Source: Trichocoleus sp.
GTDB lineage: Bacteria > Cyanobacteriota > Cyanobacteriia > Elainellales > Elainellaceae
Direction of reading: 5' to 3'
DNA length: 64,000 bases
NCBI GenBank assembly: GCA_036702865.1
Contig: DATNQD010000024.1
Span: 1 to 64,000 of the forward strand
Both the position numbers and the translations under genes were made by a program. Positions within the stretch are counted from its first letter, which is position 1. Every line of letters starts with the position of its first letter. Positions 25,268-28,981 of this stretch are shown in pieces. The notes beneath the pieces were generated by a model. It saw nothing but the letters and a program-made list of their open reading frames with translations. It made no database searches and was not told the DNA's origin.

Positions 25268-28200
25268 ATGTCTGACACGGCACTCAATTCATGGTACGGC
25301 ATCATTGGAGGTGCATTCGCTCTCAAGTTTGATGCCTTCCAGCGGATTGCAACGCTTCACAACGGGCTTTGGTTAGCCTTGCTGATTGTGGTGTTGTCTG
25401 GTCTATCGCTTGCGGTTGGGCAAAGTATTGTTTTGTTCATTAACCGTGTGAAGCCAGGACGATTTGCATTTAGTTTGCTGCTGAATGCAGCTCTGTTTAC
25501 CTTTGGCTTTCTTTTTCTTGCCTTGAGTACTTGGCTCATTGGTCTGCTGCCCGGATTGGTATCTGTACCCCTGTCAACCCTGCTCACAGTATTGGGGCTA
25601 GGCTATGCGCCCTTACTATTTGGTTTTCTGGGAGCCTTACCTTACTTGGGCTATCCCATTGGTAATTTGCTTTCCGTCTGGAACTTGCTGGCAATGGTAG
25701 TGGGGTTTGCGACGGTTGCTCAAATTGAAGCGGGTTCTGCGATCGTCTATGTCGCGTTGGGCTGGGTGGTGAAGCAGCTTCTAGAAAGAACGATCGGACA
25801 GCCAGTTACTCGGTTGGGACGCAGCCTTGCAGAGCGCGTTGCTGGAGTCGATCTAGCAGATACACCCCAGGAGTTAATGGAGCGAGTTTTAGCAGGAGTT
25901 AGACCGACGCAACCGAGCATTGGAGCAGATCGAACACCACTCTCCCCAGTGCGCCAATTGATTCAAGTCTCAGGACGTTCTGCGCCAGAGGCAGCCCGAG
26001 CCGTCGCTCAAACTCTAACGACTCAACCCACTGCCTCAACCAATCTCACGGTTACGCAAGGGAGCAACGCAGCCAATCCCTTAGTGCAGCTTGACCACAA
26101 AACGCGCAACATTCCCCAACCCGTCAAACTAGCACTCAGCCTGCTGGTGATGGCGATCGTGTTTGTCATTATCCTGGTGCTGCTGCGTCCGATCCACAAC
26201 AATCTATTTGGCTGGCACAGAAAGTTACCCAGCTTATTTCGGCTGATGTTTGATCTAGGCTGGATTGGCATAGGGGCGATCGTCTTTGCTGGCATTCTCG
26301 CGCCGCTGGAGTCGTTGGGCTGGTGGGCGGGTTGGTATGGCGATGAGCTTGATACCATGACAGCTTCTGGAGCAACTTCGGTTGCCTCGCCTGTGAATAG
26401 TCGATCGATCGATCGCTATGTCGTTTATCTCGATGGAATTGCTCAGTCAGGAAGCGAATATACGCCGGATATCGAAGACTTTTTGATGGCGCTGAAGCCT
26501 GCTCTGCCGCAAGAAATGGAATTAGTGCAGGGCTTAATGATGTATTCGGTGCTGAACAAGCCCCTAGACGAAGACCGTCCCCTCGCGTTTTTGTGGCGGA
26601 TGGCAGACAAAGTGCGGTGGAGCAATCCTGCTGCTTTGTTAGGCTTGCTGGTAAACCTGCGAAACATGATCATTGTGGCAGTGTCGTCCGACAAACGCTA
26701 TGGTCCCATCTACAATCAGGGCATTGCTCAGGTGATTTTTGATGGCTTAATTGAGCGAGGCTATCAGCCCGATAGCGGCGTGCCCATTACCTTGATTGGC
26801 TACAGCGGTGGGGGAGAAATGTCAGTTGCCGCTGCTCCCTATTTAAAGCGATCGATCGGCGCACCAATTGATGTAATTTCGATCGGCGGCGTGATGAGCG
26901 CCAATAACAATATTTTGAAGCTGGAGCAGCTCTATCACATTGTCGGCGACAAAGACATGGTTGAGCGGCTAGGTCCAATTATGTTTCCGGGTCGCTGGAA
27001 GATCTTTCCGCTGTCGTTTTGGAATCGCAGTAAGCGTAAAGGCAATATTACGATTCTCTCTGCCGGACCCGTTGGACATCAGGTGCCCGGAGGATATCTG
27101 GACCCACAAGCTAAACTGCCAGATGGACGAACTCACCTGCAACAGACGATCGAGATGATCCTCCAGATTTTGCAGGGCAAACCACTGGACGCAGAGCAGC
27201 CAATTCCCAGACAAACCAGTAATTACGCACTGTATCAAACGGCAGCCTTTAACCGTCCTGACTATTACCCAATCGCACAAACTGTGGATTTGCAGTGGTA
27301 TCGTCCGATCGGAAACTGGATGGGGCGATTGATCCTGCCTACACCAGATCAGCGATCGCAGGTACGGGGAGTGTTGTTTGAAGTTCACTACGCGCCAAGC
27401 GAGCATCGTCATCTCATTGGACAGACCGTGAAATTGCGTTGGGCAGAGCAGCCCAGAGTCCGGCAGGCAGTGAAGGCAGTTACCAAAGACCTTCACTTCA
27501 GTGCGGATGCAGAATTCGGCAGTCTTTATGGCGGCACAATCCACCCCGACCGCCTCAATCACTGGCGACAGGTTGATCCGCTGGAGTCTCTGGCAGGGCC
27601 ACATCCAACCGATGACATAATTGTGATGCTCGATCAATCAGTGGGAGTCAACGGAGATACCCTGTACATCGACAGCACGCCGATTCAAATTACAGGACGC
27701 TTTTACGCGCTGGTGCAGTTTAGGCAGCCCCTAGCTGGAACAGATCAGTTTCAAGTGACCCATTTCGATCGCGCTTCGCGTCAGTTTAGCGGCAAAGCAG
27801 AGGTAATGCACTTACCGCAGGTTGTACTGGCAAAGGCTTACGGGAGCTATCCCTCAACAACCCGTGGTTTAGAGAAATCACCATTCAACGAGATGGGCTG
27901 GTATGTGTACGGGGCAAAGGATGCTCAAGGCAGGTTTGTCGTACAGGCGATCGCTCCACGGGGGCTATTCCGGCTGCAGCCGGACATCGTTCTGTTTGGT
28001 TACGAAGCTGCTTACACCTACATTCGCAAGCGAGCCTGGGCAGATATCGCCGAGCAGAAGGGCAAAATTACTTCAGTCCTTTGTACCAGCCAATCAAACA
28101 GTTCCGATGCCGAAATCCAGGCAGCAATTGATCATTGGCGAGTGGGGGATCAAGCGTTAGTGCTGCACACTTATGGCGGTATTGGCGGTAAGCAAAAAGA

Positions 28201-28981
28201 GCCAGCGGCAGCCCTGCCGATTTTCTTTGGTCATTTTGCTTATGGTGTCGCAAAAGTGATCCATGAGCCGTTAGCGGATGAACCTCGATTTGATATCTGC
28301 TACCACCAGGTCTACACCCAAAACACAGATGGTTTAGTAGCTGGCACGCTCCACTGGTCGCGCTACATGGGCGATCGACAGTTTGGCTGGTTGGGTACTC
28401 GTCCTACCTGCGATATTTTGATCAAACTGGATGCCTTTACCGATGCTTATGCGATCGGCAGCGTTACTGTTTCTCCTTTAGAGTCGATGATGCGCCAGCT
28501 TCAGGTGATGACTGCTCGCTACCGAATTGGGGATGGCACTGGCGGCACCTATGTAGGACCTGCCAATAACTGTTCCCAAGACTCAAATCAGGCACTCTTT
28601 GCCAGCATCCGTGCCACAGCTCATACCCTGCAAGAAAATCCCCAACTTTTACAACTTCTCTTTCAGGAAGCTGGACAGAAACAGCGATTTAGGAAGCTCC
28701 GGGCGTTGGGGAGAGATTTAGAGCGGACACTTCAACCATTTGGAGGTCCCAGAGCAGATTGGGAAAAGAATGAATACAACCTAGGTAGCACGCTCGAAGA
28801 TAATCCATTGCAGAACTTATGGACGGGGTTGGGGAGTTGGCGAACAATGCTGCCGCGCAAAGCCAGTGATGCGATCGTCCGAAAGTTTTTGAAGTACGGT
28901 GCATCGGTATGGGTGCTTCGAACGAATCAAGTCGGCGGATACGACCCAGATATTGAACCGATCGCCCCGATCACACTCTAG
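25268..28981 (+). CDS. Large membrane protein with hydrolase-like elbow and C-terminal Asn-Cys motif
   Basis: A 1237-residue protein of unknown function. Residues about 30-190 contain five or six hydrophobic segments; two more lie at about 285-305 and 325-350. The middle domain has GYSGGGEMS at 511-519, a nucleophile elbow of the alpha/beta-hydrolase type with Ser513, preceded by a LIxV/strand-like stretch. The C-terminal third (about 860-1170) has a segment ending in GPANNCSQDSNQALF with Cys1102, which resembles a papain-like or NlpC-like nucleophile site. I recall automated names such as Abi (CAAX) family protease for relatives, but I do not see the EExxxR motif of CAAX proteases. It has a clear ribosome site (AGGAGCAGCAGG) and stands alone. 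Confidence 0.6.
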   Translation: MSDTALNSWYGIIGGAFALKFDAFQRIATLHNGLWLALLIVVLSGLSLAVGQSIVLFINRVKPGRFAFSLLLNAALFTFGFLFLALSTWLIGLLPGLVSVPLSTLLTVLGLGYAPLLFGFLGALPYLGYPIGNLLSVWNLLAMVVGFATVAQIEAGSAIVYVALGWVVKQLLERTIGQPVTRLGRSLAERVAGVDLADTPQELMERVLAGVRPTQPSIGADRTPLSPVRQLIQVSGRSAPEAARAVAQTLTTQPTASTNLTVTQGSNAANPLVQLDHKTRNIPQPVKLALSLLVMAIVFVIILVLLRPIHNNLFGWHRKLPSLFRLMFDLGWIGIGAIVFAGILAPLESLGWWAGWYGDELDTMTASGATSVASPVNSRSIDRYVVYLDGIAQSGSEYTPDIEDFLMALKPALPQEMELVQGLMMYSVLNKPLDEDRPLAFLWRMADKVRWSNPAALLGLLVNLRNMIIVAVSSDKRYGPIYNQGIAQVIFDGLIERGYQPDSGVPITLIGYSGGGEMSVAAAPYLKRSIGAPIDVISIGGVMSANNNILKLEQLYHIVGDKDMVERLGPIMFPGRWKIFPLSFWNRSKRKGNITILSAGPVGHQVPGGYLDPQAKLPDGRTHLQQTIEMILQILQGKPLDAEQPIPRQTSNYALYQTAAFNRPDYYPIAQTVDLQWYRPIGNWMGRLILPTPDQRSQVRGVLFEVHYAPSEHRHLIGQTVKLRWAEQPRVRQAVKAVTKDLHFSADAEFGSLYGGTIHPDRLNHWRQVDPLESLAGPHPTDDIIVMLDQSVGVNGDTLYIDSTPIQITGRFYALVQFRQPLAGTDQFQVTHFDRASRQFSGKAEVMHLPQVVLAKAYGSYPSTTRGLEKSPFNEMGWYVYGAKDAQGRFVVQAIAPRGLFRLQPDIVLFGYEAAYTYIRKRAWADIAEQKGKITSVLCTSQSNSSDAEIQAAIDHWRVGDQALVLHTYGGIGGKQKEPAAALPIFFGHFAYGVAKVIHEPLADEPRFDICYHQVYTQNTDGLVAGTLHWSRYMGDRQFGWLGTRPTCDILIKLDAFTDAYAIGSVTVSPLESMMRQLQVMTARYRIGDGTGGTYVGPANNCSQDSNQALFASIRATAHTLQENPQLLQLLFQEAGQKQRFRKLRALGRDLERTLQPFGGPRADWEKNEYNLGSTLEDNPLQNLWTGLGSWRTMLPRKASDAIVRKFLKYGASVWVLRTNQVGGYDPDIEPIAPITL

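Follow-up and report, generated by a model that had tools for sequence, protein, structure and literature searches.

A conserved membrane protein family of cyanobacteria and Eremiobacterota with an α/β-hydrolase domain and a putative papain-like cysteine site

Introduction

In the permuted NlpC/P60 enzymes, the Cys helix follows a sheet on which the His and the polar residues are placed; a C-terminal strand adds to this sheet, and a conserved Tyr has an assisting role (PMC3142127). A GD motif on strand 1 is also typical of the permuted cluster (PMC10318531). As a rule, acyl lipids serve the permuted enzymes as ligands or substrates (PMC3142127, PMC12994826), and canonical NlpC/P60 relatives cut peptidoglycan (PMC3142127). 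In S. aureus, the permuted NlpC/P60 protein LnsA and the CPBP-like protein LnsB jointly N-acylate lipoproteins (PMC7387801).

The 1237-residue protein described here is encoded in a window of 64,000 nucleotides of Trichocoleus sp. (contig DATNQD010000024.1, positions 1 to 64,000). Its C-terminal part, hereafter the C-module, shares with the permuted papain-like NlpC/P60 enzymes the order of a GD motif, a His, a polar residue, a Tyr-bearing helix and a Cys at a helix N-terminus, as well as the association with membrane modules. However, the C-module has larger loops, an OB-like half in front and Gln as the third residue, and no sequence-profile or structure match to these enzymes was found for it. 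The likeness to LnsA/LnsB lies in the pairing of a Cys/His enzyme with a CPBP-type membrane domain, which recurs in fusions of the C-module to CPBP in other genomes, whereas the 1237-residue protein itself carries a Yip1-like domain and a hydrolase instead of CPBP and its host possesses Lnt. LnsA/LnsB show no sequence link to the C-module, so that the parallel is one of design and homology is not claimed. The literature searched contains no description of this protein family. It is a real, conserved and previously undescribed family of membrane proteins with two conserved, putatively catalytic sites.

Architecture of the protein

The ORF (25268..28981, + strand, ATG start) lies in a genome of 5.93 Mb. 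Homologues were found in 30/40 related genomes, many of them full-length with 55–75% identity. Because these homologues span most of the length of the protein in most relatives, the alignment indicates that the ORF is a conserved gene and not a chance reading frame. A sequence-only reading of this DNA had listed the ORF, a GYSGGGEMS elbow with Ser513 and a C-terminal NNCSQDSNQALF motif with Cys1102, all of which were located at those residues, and a multi-helix membrane region, which the AlphaFold model resolves into five helices within residues 1–200 and two more at 284–353. That reading was right in part; it did not recognise the chain as a fusion of modules also found apart. The chain consists of three separable modules, namely a Yip1-like domain (Y), an α/β-hydrolase (H) and the C-module (C), and their features are collected in Table 1.

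Table 1 Features of the protein and their positions in the window. Fractions give the alignment rows that keep the residue; the 38 further rows include Eremiobacterota, and some of them are the same gene fetched twice.
Feature	Position	Strand	Evidence
Yip1-like membrane domain, residues 1–200	25268..25867	+	Pfam Yip1 match, AlphaFold model
Two extra transmembrane helices leading into the hydrolase, residues 284–353	26117..26326	+	AlphaFold, hydropathy
α/β-hydrolase domain, residues 380–640	26405..27187	+	Model m9c6840c1ab2c, VIA
Ser513, nucleophile elbow G-Y-S-G-G after strand	26804..26806	+	111/111; 38/38 further rows
Asp563, triad acid	26954..26956	+	111/111; 38/38 further rows
His604, triad base	27077..27079	+	110/111; 38/38 further rows
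C-module first half, residues 650–905, OB-like β-barrel	27215..27982	+	Model m79d0f68b2223, pLDDT above 90
C-module second half, residues 906–1237, β-sheet then helices, Cys1102 site	27983..28978	+	AlphaFold
Gly960-Asp961, GD on first strand of putative papain-like sheet	28145..28150	+	Gly 100%, Asp 87%, 141 rows
His989, start of next strand, putative catalytic base	28232..28234	+	141/141
Gln1014, following strand, putative third polar residue	28307..28309	+	141/141
Tyr1085, in the R-Y-R that ends the helix ahead of the Cys helix, putative Tyr signature	28520..28522	+	99%
Cys1102, N-terminus of helix 1102–1123, putative nucleophile	28571..28573	+	139/140; helix from model residue 463

Searches of Pfam, NCBIfam, PADLOC and PDB sequences with the whole chain and with module profiles returned nothing useful for the C-module, the PADLOC anti-phage defence models gave no match at E 0.01 or better, and no match was found in the viral contigs searched. 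A weak ParBc_2 match, seen in single members only, was taken as chance.

Membrane modules and the Ser513 hydrolase

The Yip1-like domain is modelled with helices at about 31–54, 65–92, 103–124, 131–151 and 157–175, mostly at pLDDT 90 or more, and its five transmembrane helices are supported by both the model and hydropathy. Like the Yip1 family (PF04893), it is a five-helix domain, and the stand-alone Yip1-like homologues at L050, L044 and L038 score 31.3–34.5 bits, which exceeds the Pfam cut-off. However, the 1237-residue protein stays under this 28.6-bit cut-off (24.5 bits, E 2.8e-5) and differs from that family in being fused to enzyme modules. The extra helices that lead into the hydrolase lie at 284–313 and 322–353 (AlphaFold, and hydropathy over 56 homologues). 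Charge bias gave conflicting topologies, both from loop to loop and from one stand-alone member to another, and for this reason no claim is made on the membrane side of the enzyme modules.

The region around Ser513, for which a hydrolase elbow had been proposed from the motif, is confidently predicted to adopt an α/β-hydrolase fold (AlphaFold model of residues 1–660, pLDDT 87.6), and the alignment bears the motif out, with Ser513 identical throughout and its partners Asp563 and His604 invariant or nearly so. In the VIA comparison, 693/1000 chains reached Z 8 or more, and the two best rows gave Z 13.1–13.2 with an rmsd of 3.4–3.7 over 206–208 residues. The top 50 rows (Z 13.2 to 11.4) begin with dienelactone hydrolases and also comprise esterases, lipases and thioesterases; because these ranks are nearly tied, no subfamily is assigned. 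The fold and the Ser513-Asp563-His604 triad are thus secure as predicted features of residues 380–640, suggesting that the domain has hydrolytic activity. It resembles the superfamily (dienelactone hydrolase, carboxylesterase and thioesterase types) in fold, in the Ser-Asp-His order and in the G-x-S-x-G elbow, but differs in its membrane anchoring via the Yip1-like domain and in lying below the Pfam cut-offs, where weak Thioesterase matches only (best E 0.0016) were obtained.

The C-module and the Cys1102 site

The C-module (residues 640–1237) is modelled by AlphaFold with a mean pLDDT of 92.3 and a pTM of 0.93. Its first half gives a best VIA Z of 6.2 to OB-type barrels, which is weak and within the background range, and its second half includes a late strand at 1213–1220 in the model. 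The order of the GD motif, His989, Gln1014, Tyr1085 and Cys1102, with this strand following them, agrees with a permuted papain-like core, and the nearly invariant Cys1102 is accompanied by the conserved His989 and Gln1014. The spacing of 113 between His989 and Cys1102 exceeds that of cyanobacterial LRAT proteins and falls within the Lnb_N range.

No Pfam or NCBIfam family matched the C-module, and a Foldseek search against PDB and BFVD gave no match at E 0.001 or better. A papain-like structure was not among the matches in the Foldseek PDB search, in the viral libraries or in VIA. However, the VIA rows mostly touch the OB-like half, so that the missing papain-like match does not speak for a new fold. 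Profile comparison of the C-module with LRAT, C92 and Lnb_N by hhalign gave no signal, and this null result is not conclusive because, although the control pair LRAT–C92 was detected (65%), the known related pair Lnb_N–C92 was missed as well. The proposal of a second hydrolase-like centre in this chain therefore stands as regards the conserved Cys1102 site, whereas neither a solved or viral structure nor a permuted-family profile matched it. Judged from the alignments, the Cys1102 region is secure as a well-supported conserved site; it is probably of the permuted papain-like type (NlpC/P60, LRAT, YiiX), and Cys1102 may act as the nucleophile.

Natural variants bear on the composition of this site. 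The Eremiobacterota proteins at L297 and L298 read HNSTQDS in place of NNCSQDS and HLY in place of QVY, such that Cys1102 → Ser co-occurs with Gln1014 → His, and the H967-GGIGG loop is absent from both. Because the nucleophile, the third residue and the loop change together in these two proteins, the comparison suggests that Cys1102, Gln1014 and the loop may form one shared site. In addition, a protein of Stenomitos frigidus (L092) has Ser at the 1102 position and keeps Gln1014 and His989, and the stand-alone C proteins at L022 and L033, which have no hydrolase domain, keep Cys, His and Gln.

Module shuffling and CPBP fusions

BLAST with the modules over the fetched loci gave 98 ORF entries for YHC, 25 for HC, 40 for C, 22 for Y, 9 for H and one for YH, counts that include a few genes twice. 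Y is encoded separately, beside an HC gene, in at least ten loci; at L040, three neighbouring genes of the same strand encode H, Y and C; in eight loci (L036–L039 and L053–L056), Y and H are divergent neighbours; and L304 carries a Y-H chain without C. From these split, divergent and adjacent arrangements, the 1237-residue chain is seen to be a fusion whose modules remain genetically linked.

A different partner is attached to the C-module in 27 proteins, which carry a C-terminal extension that matches the Rce1-like CPBP domain (PF02517) in 4/4 sequences scanned, three of them above the cut-off. In the tree, the C-CPBP rows group in a single clade (SH-aLRT 100, one change), and the EExxFR-type residues are largely present (E in 21/27, E in 26/27 and R in 27/27). 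The C-module is what the family has in common with these 27 sequenced relatives of CPBP/Rce1-like CAAX protease type, whereas the 1237-residue protein has no CPBP domain. The two forms can also lie close together, since the distance from a full-length gene to the start of the C-CPBP gene behind it is about 15 bases at L035, about 113 bases at L104 and about 1.5 kb at L089.

Proposed mechanism and alternatives

The reading put forward here, tentatively and with somewhat less than even confidence, is that a membrane-anchored serine hydrolase and a permuted-papain-like Cys centre work in tandem on acylated membrane substrates. The Yip1-like bundle and the two further helices would hold the enzyme in the membrane, and both centres would form acyl-enzyme intermediates on lipids, lipidated proteins or acyl esters, with the Ser513 hydrolase cleaving an ester or thioester and the Cys-His-Gln centre transferring or hydrolysing an acyl or amide group. 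The acyl or lipid substrate and the cooperation between the two centres are putative parts of this mechanism; what points to a preference for lipids or acyl groups is how permuted NlpC/P60 enzymes are described in the literature, along with the membrane anchoring. The wider proposal, that residues 640–1237 found a family of permuted papain-like Cys acyltransferases, coupled to the hydrolase and Yip1 or to CPBP, so that cyanobacteria and Eremiobacterota would possess an acyl relay with two centres, is possible but somewhat doubtful.

The C-module could instead be a peptidase or amidase acting on protein or peptidoglycan and the hydrolase an esterase or peptidase, with peptides or cell-wall stems as the substrates that the two would process at the membrane. 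The cleavage of peptidoglycan by canonical NlpC/P60 relatives (PMC3142127) speaks for such a role, as does the fusion to CPBP, many members of which are intramembrane proteases and whose EExxFR residues are mostly kept. However, the His-then-Cys order is the one found in the permuted group, those members of which that have been studied target lipids or acyl groups, and the stand-alone C-modules at L040 and L158 have no evident signal peptide, a poor fit to a periplasmic cell-wall role; this explanation is considered unlikely. An equally unlikely one holds that the serine hydrolase is the sole enzyme and that the Cys1102 region is a conserved domain with a binding or structural role that presents the substrate to it. 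Such a domain would accord with the lack of a fold match for the C-module and with the Ser of the S. frigidus protein, in which Gln1014 and His989 are kept. In contrast, almost no variation is seen across two phyla at Cys1102, His989, Gln1014 and Tyr1085, the paired Cys → Ser and Gln → His changes at L297 and L298 are of the kind seen in a catalytic site, and Cys, His and Gln persist in the C proteins at L022 and L033, which lack a hydrolase domain.

An enzyme strictly devoted to acyl modification of lipoproteins, analogous to LnsAB or Lnb, is the least probable of these explanations. The C-module–CPBP fusion parallels the LnsA and LnsB pair (PMC7387801), and the His-Cys spacing lies within the range of Lnb_N, but the hhalign comparison showed no profile signal between the C-module and Lnb_N or the LnsA relatives LRAT and C92, and Lnb_N (PF13387) had no match in the Trichocoleus genome or in 244 genomes of the phylum. 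Furthermore, Lnt is present in the Trichocoleus genome and in 40/40 genomes searched (35 above the curated cut-off), so that lipoprotein N-acylation needs no second enzyme and a role of the two-centre protein as the main lipoprotein N-acyltransferase is unlikely.

If the tandem mechanism holds, the family would be a large unnamed enzyme family of two bacterial phyla in which one Cys module is combined with either of two membrane partners, and the LnsA/LnsB theme, in which a permuted Cys enzyme is paired with a CPBP-like membrane protein, would reach photosynthetic bacteria. Ser513, Cys1102, His989 and Gln1014 provide concrete residues for mutational tests.

Distribution and gene neighbourhood

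Within the cyanobacterial phylum, the C-module was found in 32/244 and the hydrolase in 29/244 sampled genomes, and the named relatives are cyanobacteria, both Leptolyngbya-like and of other groups. The C-module also occurs in 20/148 genomes of Candidatus Eremiobacterota, the phylum of the MAG G277, where full-length Y-H-C proteins are encoded at L163, in G277 and in its relatives G303, G350, G357 and G373. The cyanobacterial loci contain no counterparts of the genes that flank L163, which argues against this locus being a contaminating cyanobacterial contig. The Eremiobacterota members suggest that the gene was transferred between phyla or that the family is old and common to both. Recurrent neighbours in a minority of loci are DUF3611, BrkB, DUF308, an AI-2E transporter and DUF3124; the neighbourhoods of the family loci hold no gene that names a substrate or pathway.

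In a genome that carries the label Candidatus Gracilibacteria (SU_1_2, 6.0 Mb; L128), the family gene has cyanobacteria-like neighbours, and this MAG is probably a mislabelled cyanobacterium. At L015 and L101, possibly from the same species, Y overlaps HC by ~68 bases in another frame, which is either a natural split or a frameshift, and in one MAG the hydrolase is split into two overlapping frames (L115:5878-5914), probably through a sequencing error or in a pseudogene. The genome G023 (contigs C1, C3 and C6) carries several paralogues, including full-length, HC and separate-gene forms. Finally, the Trichocoleus genome (G000) itself encodes a bacterial LRAT-domain protein (contig C71:181620-181928, L205; E 6.7e-25) with NNCEHFANWCKTG, and LRAT-domain proteins occur in 61/244 sampled genomes of the phylum.
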